Part shown: positions 12,016 to 29,526 of the stretch, piece by piece
Position numbering within the stretch: position 1 is the stretch's first letter
Layout of the letters: each line of letters starts with the position of its first letter
Notes under the pieces: generated by a model
What the model was told of the DNA's origin: nothing
Seen by the model: only the letters and a program-made list of their open reading frames with translations
Database searches by the model: none
Translations under genes and position numbers: made by a program
Origin: Hyphomicrobiales bacterium
GTDB taxonomy: Bacteria; Pseudomonadota; Alphaproteobacteria; Rhizobiales; NORP267
Assembly (NCBI GenBank): GCA_021775875.1
Contig: JAJFHA010000003.1
Location: 1-64,000, forward strand
Direction: 5' to 3'
Length of the DNA: 64,000 bases

Positions 12016-12128
12016 CGTTTGTTCGTGGTCAGGGTATTTAAGACTGAAGATTGTCTGATTTAAGAGAGTGTCTGGCTAACATGATTGTTGATATAAAGCA
12101 GCATTTTATCGGCACCACTACATTGTAC

Positions 12129-12257
12129 CGGGCGACCGGATGGAACGGGCGACCGAAAACGGTCCGCTAAGTGAAAAACCGCACAAAAGCCGCCCTTTTT
12201 TTGTCCGTTACACCTCATCATGTAGCAATTGTACAATTACAAAGACAAAATATGATA
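12129..12257. repeat. Attachment-site scar (copy B) with doubled core
   Basis: CGGGCGACCGGA (12129-12140) is followed directly by TGGAACGGGCGACCG (12141-12155), so the tRNA-Gly 3'-end core is present twice. The arm to the right (GTGAAAAACCGCACAAA..., ending ACAATTACAAAGACAAAATATGATAGCGG) closely matches 13339-13457. This marks the left end of the 1.2-kb mini-element. The rest of 12016-12476 has no gene that I can support. Confidence 0.65.
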
Positions 12258-12476: not shown

Positions 12477-12845
12477 TTAGTGAGAGCGGCACGAGGCAGT
12501 GGTTGTGTCTTCGCGGTCGCCATCATCATAATATATCCGAAGACCTGTATTTCCCCACATGCTATTTATTGTGCCCGGGTACCAATCCCCGGCATTATTA
12601 AAATTGCATTCTACCCGTGAGCCAACATGCCAATCGTACACTCTGACTTGATTTATGGGGCGGGTATCGACATCTCCATCGTCGTATCGAATGGTAATCG
12701 AATTGCCTTTCATCGCAGCTACAACGCCGGGGAAAAAGTAAGCCCCACCTTGCCATCGTGCCAATACCCAGTCACCAATTTCCAAAGCTGAAGCTGGTGA
12801 AGTAATAAAAACCAGCAGCGCTAGGCTTAATATTGATTTTGACAT
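12477..12845 (-). CDS. Secreted protein with two Tudor/SH3-like repeats
   Basis: A 122-aa protein with a clear signal peptide (MSKSILSLALLVFITSPASA, cleaved after ALA/ASA near residue 20). The mature part holds two beta-barrel-like repeats of about 45 residues, each with an aromatic strand, a glycine turn and a YDDGD motif (IRYDDGDVDTRP and IYYDDGDREDT). This is the pattern of Tudor/Agenet-type domains, unusual in an exported bacterial protein. Ligand and role are unknown. It is the only gene in the 1.2-kb segment between scars B and C and so looks like the sole cargo of a mini-element. Confidence 0.75.
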   Translation of the reverse strand: MSKSILSLALLVFITSPASALEIGDWVLARWQGGAYFFPGVVAAMKGNSITIRYDDGDVDTRPINQVRVYDWHVGSRVECNFNNAGDWYPGTINSMWGNTGLRIYYDDGDREDTTTASCRSH

Positions 12846-13266: not shown

Positions 13267-13457
13267 AGCAAAATCGCTAAAAAACCTCTGTTTCCAGCGA
13301 TTTCAATCACTTGCATTGAATTGGAGCGGGCGACCGGAAACGGTCCCGCAAGTGAAAAACCGCACAAACGCTGCTATTTTTTAATCCGTTCCGCCCTATT
13401 ATGTAGCACGTTTATGTAGCAAATGAACAATTACAAAGAAAAAAATATGGTAGCGGA
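13267..13457. repeat. Attachment-site scar (copy C): left boundary of the 16-kb island
   Basis: Bases 13267-13338 match 29396-29467, the segment between the integrase gene and the tRNA 3' end, over 72 bases; the last 19 (13320-13338) are identical to the tRNA-Gly 3' end and adjoining bases. Bases 13339-13457 match the arm of scar B. The interval therefore joins the int-proximal arm of an earlier element, a core, and the distal arm of the present island. The rest of 12846-13637 holds no supported gene. Confidence 0.75.
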
Positions 13458-13637: not shown

Positions 13638-14516
13638 TTAGCCATCGGAACGGCTATGCATATGCTTGGCAATTTCCGCCGCAACGGCCGTGGGGTCGAC
13701 ACCTGACAAAATCTCACCGTTACTCGCGAGTTTGTACATTGCAAATTGGTTCAAAATTGCTTGTTCGATCTCACGGGCAACGTCTTCGCTTGCAGTCGGC
13801 TGCTTGGCATCAACCTTCCAGTGCAAGCCCGTAACTTCATACGCGATCGGCGTATTATAGGCTGTTTCACGAGCACTTGGGGCGCTCGAATAGCCGACCT
13901 TTAGAGCGAGCACCTTCTGTCGGGTGTCTCGCAGAACCAACGTATAGACATACCAGATATCGTGGTCTCCAAATGTTCCGGTGAAGCTCCCTTTGTGCTT
14001 GGGTGCAAGCTTGCTGTTCTTCTGCGCGACCCGTCCTTTGGCAAACTCGTTCTGCGGCAGAGCAAGCCGAACGTCGCGAAGATCGAGTGCCAATAGAGGT
14101 TCAGCGGTAACAGGGGCCAGCTCGACTACCTTGGCCTGCGCTTGAAGATGATGGTGCGGGGTCAGTGGCCCCACCAGTTCAGCAAATACGTTGTCATTCG
14201 AAGTAATTTCCCAAACCGCAACCGGGTGCAGAGAATAGGGAAAGCGGGTGATGTCATCGATTTCGCTCTGGTCGTGCCTGCCGGAAATCACGTAATCTAG
14301 AGTGTTGACCTCAAGATCGGAGACCCGGTAGAGGCCCAGCACGCGCCCCTTAAATTCCTTTTCGGTCGGTTCTCCTTTGGTCCCAACGGTGAAAACCAAA
14401 TCACCTTCAGTCAACACCTTCAGCGCGTGCGAACGCGCGCCCTTGTTGGCAAACATCATTGGCCAAGCCGGGTCTCCGGGGGGGCCCCAGACGTAGGTGA
14501 AAAAAACTTTAGGCAT
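13638..14516 (-). CDS. Predicted EVE/PUA-like plus GIY-YIG (T5orf172-like) protein
   Basis: A 292-aa protein not recognised as a named family. Residues 1-80 look like a PUA/EVE-type barrel (FFTYVWGPP..., then EGDLVFTVGTKGEP and GRVLGLYRVS). Residues about 185-265 fit a divergent GIY-YIG/T5orf172 nuclease: WYVYTLVL for the GIY strand, LKVGYS for the YIG strand, a following Arg and Asn (ARETAYN), and a later glutamate (VAREIEQAIL). EVE or PUA-like readers fused to nucleases are typical of modification-dependent restriction, so this may be a type IV-like defence enzyme; that is inference. It stands alone near the left end of the island. Start ATG at 14514-14516. Confidence 0.55.
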   Translation of the reverse strand: MPKVFFTYVWGPPGDPAWPMMFANKGARSHALKVLTEGDLVFTVGTKGEPTEKEFKGRVLGLYRVSDLEVNTLDYVISGRHDQSEIDDITRFPYSLHPVAVWEITSNDNVFAELVGPLTPHHHLQAQAKVVELAPVTAEPLLALDLRDVRLALPQNEFAKGRVAQKNSKLAPKHKGSFTGTFGDHDIWYVYTLVLRDTRQKVLALKVGYSSAPSARETAYNTPIAYEVTGLHWKVDAKQPTASEDVAREIEQAILNQFAMYKLASNGEILSGVDPTAVAAEIAKHMHSRSDG

Positions 14517-15802: not shown

Positions 15803-16429
15803 TTATTTTTTAACCAGAGCCTCAATTGCATGTTCCTGAAGGTGACCCAGTATTTGCCTTTCCCGGTCAACATTCACTCGCCATGCAGAATTTTCGCCGT
15901 CTACAAGAGATACTAATGTACCGACTACTCGCTTTGTCCCTCGAAAGGTCAAAGAAAATTCTGACCGCATTTCACGATCATGCCAAAATAAAGATACACC
16001 GCCTTCTTCTTCAATTTCAATGTTGGGTAATCTATACTTTCCAAGTAAGTGTATAATCTTGGCAAAATCTTCCAATGCATTCGGAGATGGAGCACATGTG
16101 TCACCGCCATCCCATCCATCTGTTAGCCTTTTTAAATGATCGAGCTTGGCATCGATCTCGCTTTTTACAGACCTCATAAACGGGCGTCTTTGTATATTCA
16201 GGCAAGTATTTTTTGTATCAATGTAATGCACTTTTTTTGTAGAGTGGGAATAGCACGTATCGTAGAAATCATTCCCAGTTGTACCAAAATCGTGATCTAA
16301 AGCACTAATAATGCCTAATCCAACATGTGGTTCGCTCGTCGTTCCCTGTGGCTTTCTCAACCTATTTATTACTTGGTTGAAAACTGGCGGGGGATAGGTG
16401 TTTTTTTCTTCAACTTCAATGGTGCTCAT
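15803..16429 (-). CDS. Hypothetical protein with WDG-type motif, second gene of operon
   Basis: A 208-aa soluble protein. The centre carries LKRLTDGWDGGDTCAPSPNA (residues about 98-117), a motif seen in many uncharacterised accessory proteins, followed by IEEEGGVSLFWHD and a strand-rich C-terminus. Its start codon overlaps the stop of the upstream TIGR04255-like gene by 4 bases, which indicates translational coupling and joint function. No enzyme activity can be predicted. Codon usage and AT content match the rest of the island rather than the core genes. Confidence 0.65.
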   Translation of the reverse strand: MSTIEVEEKNTYPPPVFNQVINRLRKPQGTTSEPHVGLGIISALDHDFGTTGNDFYDTCYSHSTKKVHYIDTKNTCLNIQRRPFMRSVKSEIDAKLDHLKRLTDGWDGGDTCAPSPNALEDFAKIIHLLGKYRLPNIEIEEEGGVSLFWHDREMRSEFSLTFRGTKRVVGTLVSLVDGENSAWRVNVDRERQILGHLQEHAIEALVKK

Positions 16430-17262
16430 TTGCTCCCTTCCTGGTTCAAGCTAATCCGCTTCTGAATATCTTCTACAAGAATTCGATTTAAGAAACTTTT
16501 ATTCTCGTCGTGAAGTCTATTCATCTGTTCGCTCAAGCTAATTCGGTCTTCAGCTTTCAAGTCAGCAATTTTCATCGTCTCCGTCGGGCGAAGTCGTTGC
16601 ACATGTCGAATGCTAACGAGGTCAATTTCAGCATTTGGCATCGCACCTATTTGGGTGGTTTTTCTAGCGTCAAAATTTATCTGATTAAGTCGGCGAAAAT
16701 CGTCGTCCCAATCATCATACCAACCACTATGTTGATGCCACAAAGCTCCTACCTCAAACAACGTTGGAGAAAGTTCATGGGCTCCCATGTTTAGAAGCTG
16801 GCTTAAATCGTACGCTTCACCTCGGTTAACAAAAGTATCAACGACCTCAAACACAATTTCTTGCAATCCAATTTCTTGTTCCGATTTGCAAATAACGTCT
16901 ATCACTTGACTAATGATGGTGTGAGCTTGAGACCAAATCTTATCCCATCTTGTATAAAGATGACATGATACAGCAATTTGATCAGCCTCAACATTTAACG
17001 ACCAAGTAGGTGATCCATCCGGCCTTAAATGTGAAAATCGGGCGGACGGCGTAAACGTATTTGTATCAACAACGCCTCGCGTCGGGTCAACGTTCACCAC
17101 GGCAGTTTGGCCGGATTGTAAGGCAGGTAGTTCTTCTCTCCAAAGATGATGGTGATCGACTATATTCTGGAAAACGTTTCCAGTAATTTGATCTCGCAAT
17201 AGAAATGCAAAACCCACGATTTCTATGGAATGATCATCATTTTTTGGATGAAACGGCATCAA
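16426..17262 (-). CDS. TIGR04255-like protein, first gene of operon
   Basis: A 278-aa protein with the layout of the sporadically distributed TIGR04255 family: alternating strands and helices with conserved aromatic positions, a helical W-x-Q...VI segment near residue 105, then a lone strand, and the characteristic end in which a short helix reads MNRLHDENKSFLNRIL followed by a final I. The family is spread by horizontal transfer and its function is unknown. It leads a three-gene operon (overlap 4 bases with the next) in a defence-rich island. A perfect palindrome lies 42 bases before the ATG. Confidence 0.65.
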   Translation of the reverse strand: MMPFHPKNDDHSIEIVGFAFLLRDQITGNVFQNIVDHHHLWREELPALQSGQTAVVNVDPTRGVVDTNTFTPSARFSHLRPDGSPTWSLNVEADQIAVSCHLYTRWDKIWSQAHTIISQVIDVICKSEQEIGLQEIVFEVVDTFVNRGEAYDLSQLLNMGAHELSPTLFEVGALWHQHSGWYDDWDDDFRRLNQINFDARKTTQIGAMPNAEIDLVSIRHVQRLRPTETMKIADLKAEDRISLSEQMNRLHDENKSFLNRILVEDIQKRISLNQEGSK

Positions 17263-17608: not shown

Positions 17609-18517
17609 ATGCAAGTAATTGAACGTAGGAGGCCAAACCTCGGTGTTCCCAATCTTGAAGAGAAGGTCTTCAGGGATGTCGAAGCGGCATTGCACTCAGT
17701 TGCGACGCGCAAAAAGCAATTCGTTGTGAACGATACGGATTGGTATTGGGTCAACCCTGCGGGCAAGGTGATGCCGACCGTCGTCAACTCCGCCTACTAC
17801 ATCACCTCAAAATTTCAATCTCATTTAGCGTCACTTGGGTGGACGAAAGAAAAAACTATCAATAAGCAAACAATAGATGGGTATATCGAATTTGTGGCAA
17901 CCCAGGACGCTTGGTTCTGTAGCTCGGTATCATTCGTAGAGCTGCTGACTGATATAGAACATTTAACGCGGTCAAGCAGCGGACCATTTGCCACCGAAAT
18001 CTACCAGCGATTTTTCTTGAAAGGGTCGCCCACACTCGATGGAGTGCCAGGAAAATTACATCAACTATTTTCTCGTCGGCAACTCGAAAATGTTATCCGG
18101 CTTGGGTTGGAATTTGAGACCGGAAACATCGCTAGTTCATTTCGAGCAACAACCAAACTTGAAAATTTGTTTCGGGCAGGAACGATTGATGCTGGAGTTT
18201 TTATCACATCAATTGACAAGCGAAACGCGGCAACTCGAATTTGGCCAACCTCTAACCGGAATGGAAGTTTTGAGGAGTTGGACAATCGGAATTTTCGCGA
18301 TGAGCTTTCAATTCCATTGTGGGAAATTGGTTTCGCGCCAGACAGCTTTGATCAATCGGCCCCATATCTCGGGAATAATGGTACGCTTTATGAAATGGAA
18401 GATACCGGCCGGGTGGTGGACACTAGTCAGGGCAGCTTTAGAGTATTTCGGGATTACAAACATCAGGAAAAATTACTTCCGGATGTTCTAACCGGCTTTG
18501 TTCCGATAGATGATTGA
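17609..18517 (+). CDS. Putative type II restriction endonuclease, BglII/BstYI-like
   Basis: A 302-aa protein placed tail to tail with a DNA C5 methyltransferase. Residues about 165-205 contain LEFETGN, a following ATTKLENLF, then GTIDAGVFITSI, the E...GN...K...iDxGV pattern I associate with the BglII/BstYI group of PD-(D/E)XK restriction enzymes. The acidic residues there would bind catalytic Mg2+. It should cut unmodified DNA at a short site protected by the neighbouring enzyme; the recognition sequence cannot be deduced. The last 80 bases overlap the methyltransferase 3' end on the other strand. Length is family-like. Confidence 0.68.
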   Translation: MQVIERRRPNLGVPNLEEKVFRDVEAALHSVATRKKQFVVNDTDWYWVNPAGKVMPTVVNSAYYITSKFQSHLASLGWTKEKTINKQTIDGYIEFVATQDAWFCSSVSFVELLTDIEHLTRSSSGPFATEIYQRFFLKGSPTLDGVPGKLHQLFSRRQLENVIRLGLEFETGNIASSFRATTKLENLFRAGTIDAGVFITSIDKRNAATRIWPTSNRNGSFEELDNRNFRDELSIPLWEIGFAPDSFDQSAPYLGNNGTLYEMEDTGRVVDTSQGSFRVFRDYKHQEKLLPDVLTGFVPIDD

Positions 18518-20249
18518 TGTAGAAATTGAAAGTCTCTTCGTTTGCGTCAATTCCGGATGGACTACCGCTTTGATTTTCCCGATTGGTTGCGCTGGCAATG
18601 TAGGCAGCAGCGATTAGGCCAGCCACTATTCTAACTCTAGTTCCAATTCGCGGGGCTATCGTTAAATGCCCTTGTGGCAGCAACCGCGTCCGCTCAAATC
18701 TCTCCTTAGGCAAGGTGTTATTTATGACTGTCGCAGCTTTCTCGACCAACTCAGCGGGCCCCAATTCATTGCCGCGAGCTTCCTCAACCCATCTGCTTTG
18801 AAGCGTCGCAGCATCTACAATTAAATCTTTAAATGCTGACCTCATTTGTACAAGGAAGTTGATTGCCATTTCCGTAGGAACAATGTGCGGACACCCCGTG
18901 ATGAATTCTTCCAAAGCAGCCTGCAAGGTTACCTCAGTGCTTTGAACTGAGCGTCCTTCGCCAGCATAGAACTTTGCTGTCCATACAACAGCGCTTTTTG
19001 GATGTTTTCTATTTCGGCCCGAAGCATCAGTTCCGCACCCTCTATTGTCCAATTCTGCTCTGCAACCACGCATCTCTTTTCCCGGAACAAGTTCCGAGAA
19101 CTTTCGGTCGGCGCGCATTGTCTTCTTGCGCGCACCCGAGGAAAGCACATCGCCAAGCTGAGGAGGGAACACGTTCACCATCTTCTCAATTCTTGGCTCA
19201 TTAAGTACTGGCATGCCCTCGGCAAACCGAATTTTCTCTCCAATCGCATATGATAATATCGGCGGAACCGCATTCCCAACCAGCGAATATCTCTTGTTGT
19301 AACTGGTCCCAAAAAACTGGAATGTAATTGGAAACGTTTGCAAAGTGGCACATTCCCTTACTGTTAATCTGCGCTTAATTTTCTCTCCATTTTTTTGATC
19401 ATCAACAATGATTGTTTCCCGGCCCAACTGTGTTGCTACAATAGTTCGTGCTGGCCGATCTAGAGCATCAGGAAATGGCAAAAAACCCATATATGGATGC
19501 GCCTGTTTTGCCTTCTCAATACTGCGGCTTTCTTGTTTCGACAGGCTTGGGTCATAAAAGTGATCAGTCAATTCTGCCTCAGGTAATTCAAAGCCGAAAT
19601 TGAAATCTCTAACTATGCCTTTGCGGTGGGCTTTATATGGGTTCGGCAAAGAAGCGAGCGCTTCTCCAAATGTACGCCACCTTTTCATGCTAGACTTCAA
19701 GGTCAATTGCGGAACATTTTTGACATTGCCGTGGCTCGCCTCAGGAGTTGGATAATCTCCAACTAAGTAGCGTTTTCTCAACTGAGGAGCACCAAAATCT
19801 GCTGCAACGAAAAAGTTCTTTTGAGGGACATCAAGGAAGCCATCTTCGTCAACACCGAACCATCTATAAGGAATTTCATCTGGAAGATACTTAGAGAGCC
19901 TTGGAATATTCTCCATAATCCAATATTTTGGCTTAAGATGATGTACCGCCCTTAAGAACGATTGCACCAAAAGCAATCCAGCTATCACGTTTCGGTTTGC
20001 TTCTGGCTTTGATGTGGAGAACTCGACACAAGGAGGCCCGCCAACAAGTATGTCACAGTCCGGTAGGCCCTCAGGATTAAAATCCCGCAAGTCCATTTTT
20101 ATCGCGTCTGCTTCTGGGTGATTGGCCCTAAACGTCTCTACAGCCCACTTGTCGTTGTCTATGCCCAAAATGACATCGAACCCTGCATGCTGCAGTCCAG
20201 CGCTCAATCCACCACCGCCACAAAAAAGATCAATTACTTTCAGTGTCAT
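18438..20249 (-). CDS. DNA (cytosine-5-)-methyltransferase with long C-terminal extension
   Basis: A 603-aa C5 methyltransferase, transferring methyl from SAM to cytosine. The motifs run in canonical order: I (DLFCGGGGLSAGL, residues 7-19), IV with catalytic Cys (GGPPCVEFS, near 73), VI (ENIPRL, near 112), VIII (QLRKRYLVGDY), IX (RPARTIVATQ) and X (GNAVPPILSYAIG, near 325). Typical enzymes end about there; here some 260 more residues follow with no recognised domain. It pairs with the convergent BglII-like endonuclease as a type II system. The serine recombinase gene upstream overlaps its start by 20 bases. Confidence 0.92.
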   Translation of the reverse strand: MTLKVIDLFCGGGGLSAGLQHAGFDVILGIDNDKWAVETFRANHPEADAIKMDLRDFNPEGLPDCDILVGGPPCVEFSTSKPEANRNVIAGLLLVQSFLRAVHHLKPKYWIMENIPRLSKYLPDEIPYRWFGVDEDGFLDVPQKNFFVAADFGAPQLRKRYLVGDYPTPEASHGNVKNVPQLTLKSSMKRWRTFGEALASLPNPYKAHRKGIVRDFNFGFELPEAELTDHFYDPSLSKQESRSIEKAKQAHPYMGFLPFPDALDRPARTIVATQLGRETIIVDDQKNGEKIKRRLTVRECATLQTFPITFQFFGTSYNKRYSLVGNAVPPILSYAIGEKIRFAEGMPVLNEPRIEKMVNVFPPQLGDVLSSGARKKTMRADRKFSELVPGKEMRGCRAELDNRGCGTDASGRNRKHPKSAVVWTAKFYAGEGRSVQSTEVTLQAALEEFITGCPHIVPTEMAINFLVQMRSAFKDLIVDAATLQSRWVEEARGNELGPAELVEKAATVINNTLPKERFERTRLLPQGHLTIAPRIGTRVRIVAGLIAAAYIASATNRENQSGSPSGIDANEETFNFYINHLSEQSRLEHPEVIFPDVCNPEIL

Positions 20250-27607: not shown

Positions 27608-29368
27608 TCAGGTTTCAATCACCTGCTCATTCCAATCAATTACCTTTATCATGCTGAAATCTACCGCAGGATATTTGATCAGAGCAATTGCCTTAGCTTT
27701 TTCGAACATATTGATACCAGAACCATAAATTGCATCGGTTCCGTTTCCATTCCCCCAACCTCCGATTGCCTGAACTCTATCTTCTGGAACTTGGCAATTT
27801 CTGCCGGCATCCCGAAATGTGTGACGAAAAGAATGAAATGAAGTTTTGTCCGTCTTAATCGCCACCCTAATGAGATACGCGGAATAACGTTTAGAAAAAA
27901 TTGAACCGAATTTCCCTTCTGACCCCCTTTTTACATCAGGAAAAAACCTTCCATCGGCACGCTGCTCGGCTGCGTTCATTAATGTGCCAAACCCAAATTC
28001 GTCCATTTTTGGGTGGATAGGAACATTGCGGTGGGCGTTGGGATTTTTCAGATGATTGTCGCCCTCGCTATGCAAACGAAAAAATTTGGCACCGTCTTCC
28101 ACTTGCACATCATGCCATGTCAGTTGAAGAATTTCCTCCATGCGCATGCCATGAAATAGTGAGAACAGAGGTGCCCAATAATATGAAGGTTTAGCAACAT
28201 CTGGTGATCGATACACGTCTTCTGCAAAAATACTGTTTAGCGCCTCCATTGTGAAAGGATCTTTTGCATCCTTACCACTTGGTGCACCGTCTGTCGGCAC
28301 CCGCAAATCATCTGCCAAATTTTCTTTAACTAGCGGCTCTTTAACTGCCCATTTCATCAAAGCGGCTATGCGCGATACATTTTTATTTACTGTCCTAGGG
28401 TGGAGCGTTTGCTCTCCCGCTATTTCTGTTTCCCGCGCTATTTCAGAAAGTGTTTTGTTTTGCCGTGCTTTTCCTTTGATCGCGTTCGGGGGTAGACGCT
28501 GAATTAGATCACGCACCTCTCGAAATTGAGCGCGGCTAATGTCTCGAATGAGCGCGTCAGGACCCAAAACTTCCAACATTGGTCGAAAAGCTGCGCGCAT
28601 ATCCAAAATCGTTCGCTTGCTGCGAGTTTTATCGGCGGCTAAATATAATTCAATTAGCTCACTCAATGTGACTTGATTTTGATCAGTTTCCTGATCGTTT
28701 ACTGTATCCAATTCAGAAAAAGCGTTGTCGTAAACTGAAGCCGGTTCACCTTTTAGAACAGCTATCTGACGCCTAACACCTTCCAAATAACCCCTGCGAA
28801 CCATATTTATCAACGACCAATAACCGTCAGAACTTTTATCCACATTGGCCTGTTTCGTTCTTCGTTTTTTGTTCGCTCCAGAGCCAAATTTCCTGATAGC
28901 GAGAAACCCATTTGCAACCAGAATTTTATCAGCAATTGCTTGAAGGCTTGGCATTACCTCTTCAGTGCGTCCAGACATTAATTGACGTTCTTCTTCCTCC
29001 AATTCTCCCTTCAATTCGCCTAAACGCTCAAGGGAAATCTCTTCCTCCAAAATTTCAAATATTTCATCAGCCGACCGATCAAGGTCAGTAGCGAACCATG
29101 ATTTCGCAAACTTTATTGCCATCTCTTTGGTCAATTTTTCTGGGTCTTGCGGTGAGAGGCTCCGTCTAGCCTGCCCAAATTCTGTTTCAATTTCTGCATT
29201 GATTTGGGCAAACAGTTCCTTCGCCAGATTTAGATCGCCTGTCCCGAGGCTTTTTAAAATCTCTGTCTTTCCGATGATATGGCGAATTTCGTCGGGCACG
29301 CGCCTTCGCACCTGCCAAACATTGCCCCTACGTTGGAGGCCAGGTGGCTTTTTTCCCATGTCCTGCAT
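27608..29368 (-). CDS. Tyrosine-type integrase of the tRNA-Gly island
   Basis: A 586-aa site-specific recombinase with a DUF6538-type N-terminus (LQRRGNVWQVRRRVPDEIR), a core-binding domain around residues 235-330 and a C-terminal catalytic domain. The conserved residues seen are R in FHGMRMEEIL, H-x-x-R in SFHSFRHTFRDAG, and the probable nucleophile Tyr in DAIYGSG. It integrates by crossover within the tRNA-Gly 3' end, whose last base is 82 bases upstream of its start. It has a long N-terminal arm typical of chromosomal island integrases of alphaproteobacteria. Confidence 0.94.
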   Translation of the reverse strand: MQDMGKKPPGLQRRGNVWQVRRRVPDEIRHIIGKTEILKSLGTGDLNLAKELFAQINAEIETEFGQARRSLSPQDPEKLTKEMAIKFAKSWFATDLDRSADEIFEILEEEISLERLGELKGELEEEERQLMSGRTEEVMPSLQAIADKILVANGFLAIRKFGSGANKKRRTKQANVDKSSDGYWSLINMVRRGYLEGVRRQIAVLKGEPASVYDNAFSELDTVNDQETDQNQVTLSELIELYLAADKTRSKRTILDMRAAFRPMLEVLGPDALIRDISRAQFREVRDLIQRLPPNAIKGKARQNKTLSEIARETEIAGEQTLHPRTVNKNVSRIAALMKWAVKEPLVKENLADDLRVPTDGAPSGKDAKDPFTMEALNSIFAEDVYRSPDVAKPSYYWAPLFSLFHGMRMEEILQLTWHDVQVEDGAKFFRLHSEGDNHLKNPNAHRNVPIHPKMDEFGFGTLMNAAEQRADGRFFPDVKRGSEGKFGSIFSKRYSAYLIRVAIKTDKTSFHSFRHTFRDAGRNCQVPEDRVQAIGGWGNGNGTDAIYGSGINMFEKAKAIALIKYPAVDFSMIKVIDWNEQVIET

Positions 29369-29395: not shown

Positions 29396-29450
29396 AGCAA
29401 AATCGCTAAAAAACTTAGGTTTTCTGCGATTTCAATCACTTGCTTTGGAT

Positions 29451-29467
<17 letters not shown>
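29396..29467. repeat. Right attachment site of the island
   Basis: 72 bases matching 13267-13338, made of an island arm (29396-29450) and the tRNA-Gly 3' end (29451-29467). It marks the int-proximal junction. Confidence 0.8.

Positions 29468-29526
<59 letters not shown>

Follow-up and report, generated by a model that had tools for sequence, protein, structure and literature searches.

Numerous fusions of an EVE domain with a GIY-YIG nuclease domain were listed by Bell, Wolf, and Koonin in 2020 and proposed to be modification-dependent restriction enzymes, none of which is described there as tested (PMC7641849). The EVE-HNH enzyme VcaM4I, of about 300 amino acids, consists of a canonical N-terminal EVE reader with the pocket P24/W82/Y130, a helical linker, and a C-terminal HNH nuclease (PMC7897488). 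Two kinds of type IV enzyme with a GIY-YIG nuclease are also on record: CMoRE (PD-T4-3; PDB 9u7u), which is encoded by a single gene, acts on phages with 5hmC or 5ghmC, and has a sensing domain reported to be without fold homologues (PMC12923530), and the wH-GIY-YIG enzymes Ahi29725I and Apa233I, in which the modified-base reader is a winged helix for Gm6ATC (PMC11037411). A reader that swaps its nuclease partner is a habit of modification-dependent restriction enzymes (PMC7641849, PMC7897488, PMC11037411). The DnmA-YeeB-YeeC cluster, in which YeeC ends in a T5orf172 domain, is already known as well (PMC9973331). In the searchable literature, no EVE/YTH-GIY-YIG enzyme is described as characterized.

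P0001 is the product of a mobile-element gene of 292 codons in a 64,000-nucleotide (nt) window (the whole stretch of DNA that was analyzed). It follows the same two-domain logic as the fusions of Bell et al., and differs from them in that its reader lies below Pfam EVE and is equally near YTH by fold. With VcaM4I it shares the N-terminal reader, the helical linker, the C-terminal nuclease, and the approximate length, whereas the nuclease type and the canonical EVE domain of VcaM4I set the two apart. Like CMoRE, it is a single-gene GIY-YIG protein, with a proposed type IV character; however, CMoRE has the nuclease first, with a GIYxY-YIG motif, whereas in P0001 the nuclease is C-terminal and other family members do not share Y189 of the corresponding Y189-V-Y191 as a conserved residue. 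It resembles Ahi29725I and Apa233I in joining a GIY-YIG nuclease to a putative modified-base reader, which in P0001 is a predicted PUA-superfamily barrel instead of a winged helix. The design is thus known in outline, and GIY-YIG enzymes of type IV are precedented by CMoRE (PMC12923530) and wH-GIY-YIG (PMC11037411); the initial annotation, which had called the architecture uncommon, overstated the case in view of the many fusions already listed (PMC7641849). Three points are new: the reader has diverged (it is EVE/YTH-like and lies outside Pfam EVE), nucleases are swapped inside a single family, and the genes repeatedly come to lie in restriction-modification (R-M) operons.

We consider it probable that P0001 is a single-gene, type IV-like, modification-dependent restriction endonuclease carried by an integrative element in a tRNA-Gly gene (Table 1), and we infer that it most likely guards against viruses with disguised (modified) DNA. 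As such, P0001 would be a compact modification-dependent nuclease from Alphaproteobacteria, might serve to map modified bases, and would exemplify a modified-base reader obliged to coexist with several resident methyltransferases (MTases).

Table 1. Features of the P0001 gene and of the element that carries it (window coordinates)
Feature	Position	Strand	Basis
P0001 gene, two-domain protein, 292 aa	13638..14516	-	ATG at 14516, stop 13638-13640; full-length homologues
Residues 1-152, YTH/EVE-like (PUA superfamily) putative modified-base reader	14061..14516	-	AF2, Foldseek, and profile
Residues 153-185, helical, then low-confidence linker	13962..14060	-	Helix 157-169; pLDDT < 50 at 169-182
Residues 186-292, GIY-YIG nuclease domain, T5orf172 type	13641..13961	-	Pfam, AF2, Foldseek, hhalign
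Codon Y191, predicted general base (GIY tyrosine)	13944..13946	-	Invariant (n = 20); equals invariant Y4 of T5orf172 set
Codon K206 (K-V-G replaces YIG)	13899..13901	-	Invariant; K17-I-G19 invariant in T5orf172 set
Codon R216, predicted catalytic arginine	13869..13871	-	Invariant
Codon E251, predicted metal-binding glutamate	13764..13766	-	Invariant
Codon E268, [GN][GN]E near C terminus	13713..13715	-	Invariant; matches E69 of T5orf172 set
Left attachment core, copy of tRNA-Gly 3' end, in 83-bp repeat 13267-13349	13321..13338	+	
Right attachment core, tRNA-Gly 3' end	29450..29467	+	Empty site in congeners
tRNA-Gly (CCC), integration site	29451..29526	-	
Tyrosine-recombinase integrase of the element, at the tRNA end	27608..29368	-	PHROG integrase, E = 3e-33
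C5-cytosine methyltransferase, same element	18438..20249	-	Pfam DNA_methylase, E = 3.6e-44
Type II restriction endonuclease (REase), BglII/BamHI-like	17609..18517	+	PADLOC REase_II, 8.1e-7; Pfam BglII/BamHI subthreshold

The P0001 gene and its homologues

The open reading frame (ORF) is located exactly where the initial annotation had placed it, and the plus strand across the same interval is broken by in-frame stops and holds no ORF. Since full-length homologues are present in other genera and orders, the frame is more than a chance ORF. These homologues are about 30% identical to P0001 (for example, 30% identity over residues 7 to 283 of 292). An HMM search of genomes of the same order found them in 9 of 298, the genome of the window counted, and a whole-genome HMM search of a class sample of alphaproteobacterial genomes found them in about 3%; a few more lie on plasmids of Sinorhizobium, Thioclava, and Limimaricola. 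Peptide-pattern scans for close relatives gave no match in genome contigs, viral contigs, or phage records, because the family is too divergent for such scans, whereas the whole-genome HMM search succeeded; an alignment of the family likewise held no stretch sufficiently conserved for a pattern. In sequence terms P0001 is nearly an orphan: PADLOC, NCBIfam, and PHROGs yield no match to its family, a PDB sequence search with P0001 alone returned zero matches, and the only Pfam match is T5orf172, at 18.1 bits against a curated cutoff of 20.

In the tree, P0001 groups with the homologues L029, L021, and L057 (support 99/98), a nearest clade that has no fixed MTase partner. L021 and L057 are 79% identical despite coming from genomes of different orders, and the gene therefore moves horizontally. 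L021 is inserted like a moron on the opposite strand between prophage head and tail genes, and L057 lies near an antirestriction gene and an apparent relaxase gene (the relaxase recognized by eye). Three other homologues (L020:8969-10288, L031:8813-10231, and L017:8530-9963) begin with an additional conserved domain, about 115 residues long (LAAKA...TYQQV...GWNHPTGRGLG...), which has no Pfam match above the cutoff.

The C terminus is a predicted GIY-YIG domain of the T5orf172 type

The initial annotation had compared the C terminus to a T5orf172/GIY-YIG domain, and the structure prediction bears this out. The AlphaFold2 (AF2) secondary structure, E188-196, E202-210, H213-221, E232-241, H244-257, has the beta-beta-alpha-beta-alpha order, and Foldseek matches T5orf172 proteins with a probability of 1.00. 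Pfam T5orf172 (PF10544) is found in 10 of 20 family members, with 30.3 bits, above the cutoff, for homologue L002 (29% identical to P0001), and hhalign relates the C-terminal part to T5orf172 proteins at 74% (E = 2.8e-5).

In a conservation alignment of 20 sequences, with identities to P0001 as low as 14%, Y191, K206, G208, R216, A247, E251, and E268 are invariant, and G11, F22, R28, G57, W92, R100, and W233 nearly so. Nine T5orf172 proteins of related genomes have invariant Y4, K17-I-G19, R27, E54, and E69, and the invariant residues of the P0001 family, A247 apart, read as the GIY-YIG signature in its T5orf172 form. The arginine and glutamates of the series "R, N, and E in order" in the initial annotation thus correspond to the invariant R216, E251, and E268, and the asparagine is not conserved.

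T5orf172 domains are often annotated merely as DNA binding, a label that several databases also give to proteins among the Foldseek matches, and P0001 might accordingly bind DNA without cutting it and regulate or mark its element. We give this little credence: the residues expected for GIY-YIG catalysis are all invariant even at such low identities, and relatives carry other nucleases in place of the GIY-YIG part.

The N terminus is a putative reader with a predicted, divergent YTH/EVE-like fold

Full-length AF2 modeling, with a 17-row alignment from which the plasmid rows were left out, gave a mean pLDDT of 80, and residues 1 to 152 alone (21 rows) were modeled with a pLDDT of 84.6 and a pTM of 0.82. 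In Foldseek searches of the PDB, this part matches the YTH structure 4u8t (1.00), the EVE structures 2ar1 (1.00), 2p5d (0.99), and 2g2x (0.96), the N-terminal domain of McrB (6n0s, 0.97), and THYN1 with 5mC DNA (5j3e, 0.77), with moderate TM-scores of about 0.4 to 0.58 against the YTH and EVE structures. The EVE/PUA-like N terminus of the initial annotation is therefore found in the model, which holds both a PUA-like barrel and the GIY-YIG sheet. The chain of CMoRE (9u7u) was aligned to residues 1 to 152 as a weak match (143 columns, probability 0.60, E = 0.094).

Sequence profiles alone do not suffice to establish this fold. Pfam EVE (PF01878) has no match in P0001 and matches 4 of 20 family members, all below the threshold (best E = 0.0092); the best PDB match of a profile search with the reader is PH1033 (UPF0310, E = 0.13); and hhalign of the reader against canonical proteobacterial EVE proteins gave a nonsignificant 1.6%, perhaps due to the very uniform EVE profile (Neff 2.3). 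By the models, residues 1 to 152 fall within the EVE/YTH branch of the PUA superfamily as a divergent member, no nearer to EVE than to YTH.

RNA is a further ligand of EVE and YTH domains. The strongest fold matches include YTH domains bound to m6A RNA (4u8t, Mmi1, YTHDC1), and EVE domains in toxin-antitoxin settings have been discussed (PMC7641849), so that the reader might bind modified RNA, either tRNA or phage mRNA, with the GIY-YIG domain cutting nucleic acid as a toxin in abortive infection. However, the homologues lie among DNA R-M genes and not generally with toxin-antitoxin pairs, and the alternative partners of the reader, HNH and PLD, are DNA-type nucleases. To our knowledge, moreover, every characterized GIY-YIG domain is a DNA nuclease, and we regard an RNA-directed effector as unlikely.

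Whole-chain Foldseek searches of the PDB are led by the EVE structures 2g2x, 2ar1, and 1zce, followed by the GIY-YIG nuclease Slx1 (7cq2). The match to Slx1 would suit a repair or recombination nuclease, with a reader that senses damaged or oxidized bases and a GIY-YIG domain that incises like UvrC or Slx1, but the patchy accessory distribution (about 3% of genomes), the mobile-element site, and the R-M neighbors speak against a housekeeping role and make this reading quite improbable.

The reader is exchanged between nucleases and lodges among R-M genes

In most relatives the reader is joined to a GIY-YIG domain. Two relatives (L054 and L056) have the same N-terminal domain with an HNH-like C terminus, as in VcaM4I (Pfam HNH is subthreshold only), and in L018 the reader is a separate gene directly before a PLDc-type nuclease gene, in the slot between dnmA and yeeB. 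In these homologues, the N-terminal reader is modular and exchanged between nucleases. A separate protein of 578 amino acids (L059:8603-10339), with DUF3427 followed by a T5orf172-like GIY-YIG domain of the P0001 type, adjoins a resolvase-like gene and is another candidate for a reader-plus-nuclease protein.

R-M genes are nearby in 13 of 25 loci, the window counted, which is a raw count and not a formal enrichment. In L029, the gene lies within a type I operon, hsdM-hsdS-[gene]-GmrSD-hsdR, with all genes in the same direction. At four alphaproteobacterial loci (L022, L025, L026, and L051), it is located between a DnmA/YeeA-like MTase (PADLOC type IIG, 867 bits) and a YeeB-like helicase, with a YeeC-like T5orf172 protein next where the contig extends far enough; unlike these loci, the window has no DnmA-YeeB-YeeC cluster. 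Further neighbors are a C5-MTase, Vsr, and a type II REase upstream of L058, an Mrr nuclease and a TIR protein (L005), hsdS (L016), a protein of the HEC-05 (GmrSD-like) kind (L052), and a type I MTase (L054). The type IV-like role proposed in the initial annotation fits this range of contexts (type I, DnmA/type IIG-like, C5-MTase with Vsr, Mrr, and GmrSD), with the dependence on modification as the conjectural part.

The dnmA-yeeB gap also holds other contents: the reader alone with another gene (L018 and L027), an Mrr-N-like protein with 34% identity over 116 amino acids to the Mrr adjoining the Sinorhizobium meliloti homologue (L116), another ORF (L115), or nothing long (L117 and L118). In Alphaproteobacteria this gap is a variable cargo slot, and a P0001-type protein is only one of its optional contents. 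A role for this protein as an integral fourth component of DnmA-YeeB-YeeC was discarded, as the slot in L115 to L118 holds another gene or none.

Proposed mechanism

As a modification-dependent endonuclease, P0001 would bind DNA through its YTH/EVE-like domain, flip a modified base, and hold it in a putative pocket, a step modeled on VcaM4I (PMC7897488) and on YTH structures. The flexible linker may then let the GIY-YIG domain reach and cut nearby DNA. In the predicted active site, Y191 would act as general base, K206 and R216 would sit at the phosphate, and E251 would bind a metal ion; cleavage probably involves a dimer or paired sites. Modification dependence, cleavage, DNA as the substrate, and the identity of the base are what we infer here. 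The host has a CcrM homologue and four C5-MTase hits, including the one on the island; therefore, resident Gm6ANTC and some 5mC contexts must be tolerated, and the target has to be a base or context outside the products of these enzymes. Candidates would be 5hmC, a hypermodified base, or modification in a narrow sequence context.

Besides the RNA binding of EVE and YTH domains and the DNA-binding label of T5orf172 domains, two observations count against the type IV reading. The reader is divergent from canonical EVE, with a putative pocket, and several of the homologues lie in DnmA-type or type I operons whose predicted product is m6A, a setting in which promiscuous cleavage at m6A would be suicidal. 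A broader proposal, which we offer tentatively and think doubtful, treats the divergent YTH/EVE-like reader as an exchangeable anti-modification module whose nuclease may be GIY-YIG, HNH, or a separate PLD protein and which has entered R-M operons again and again (dnmA/yeeB, hsdS/hsdR). A single operon would then attack DNA that is unmodified as well as DNA that is wrongly modified, and the reader would pass over the methyl mark made by that operon.

The gene lies in an array of elements integrated at tRNA-Gly

Four copies of the tRNA-Gly 3' end are present, at about 8006, 12123-12157, 13321, and 29450. In two congeners with an empty site, the left flank (the window to ∼8031 in G541) is joined straight to the tRNA, and hence about 21.4 kb was inserted; the insertion from 8006 to 29467 is an apparent tandem array of integrated elements. 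The P0001 gene is located just inside the left, tRNA-distal end of the 16-kb unit at 13.3 to 29.45 kb, which also holds a TIGR04255 protein and a resolvase. The description as a defense-rich island in the initial annotation is fair, with the qualification that the best-supported defense content is one type II R-M pair, whose convergent genes overlap by 80 bp.

As P0001 and the C5-MTase are on the same element, P0001 could be a conventional type II component that cuts unmodified sites shielded by this MTase. However, the MTase already has the adjoining BamHI/BglII-like REase, and P0001 was set aside as its restriction partner on this account. The closest homologues (L021, L057, and L029), moreover, are near other MTases or none, and the N-terminal domain has a base-reader fold and not that of a target-recognition domain, so that we hold this very unlikely. 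As a type IV-like enzyme, P0001 would instead complement the neighboring pair by destroying phage DNA that its modification protects from ordinary restriction.

About 260 residues at the C terminus of the C5-MTase form an extension that matches no family. The TIGR04255 gene (16426-17262, minus strand) is followed by a gene at 15803-16429 (minus strand) with a partial match (E = 1.5e-6) to PDC-M32A, a candidate defense family, and the two are possibly a further defense pair. A gene at 12477-12845 (minus strand), which encodes a protein of 122 amino acids that probably has a signal peptide and contains two Tudor/Agenet-like repeats, stands alone between two attachment cores, as though it were its own mini-element.
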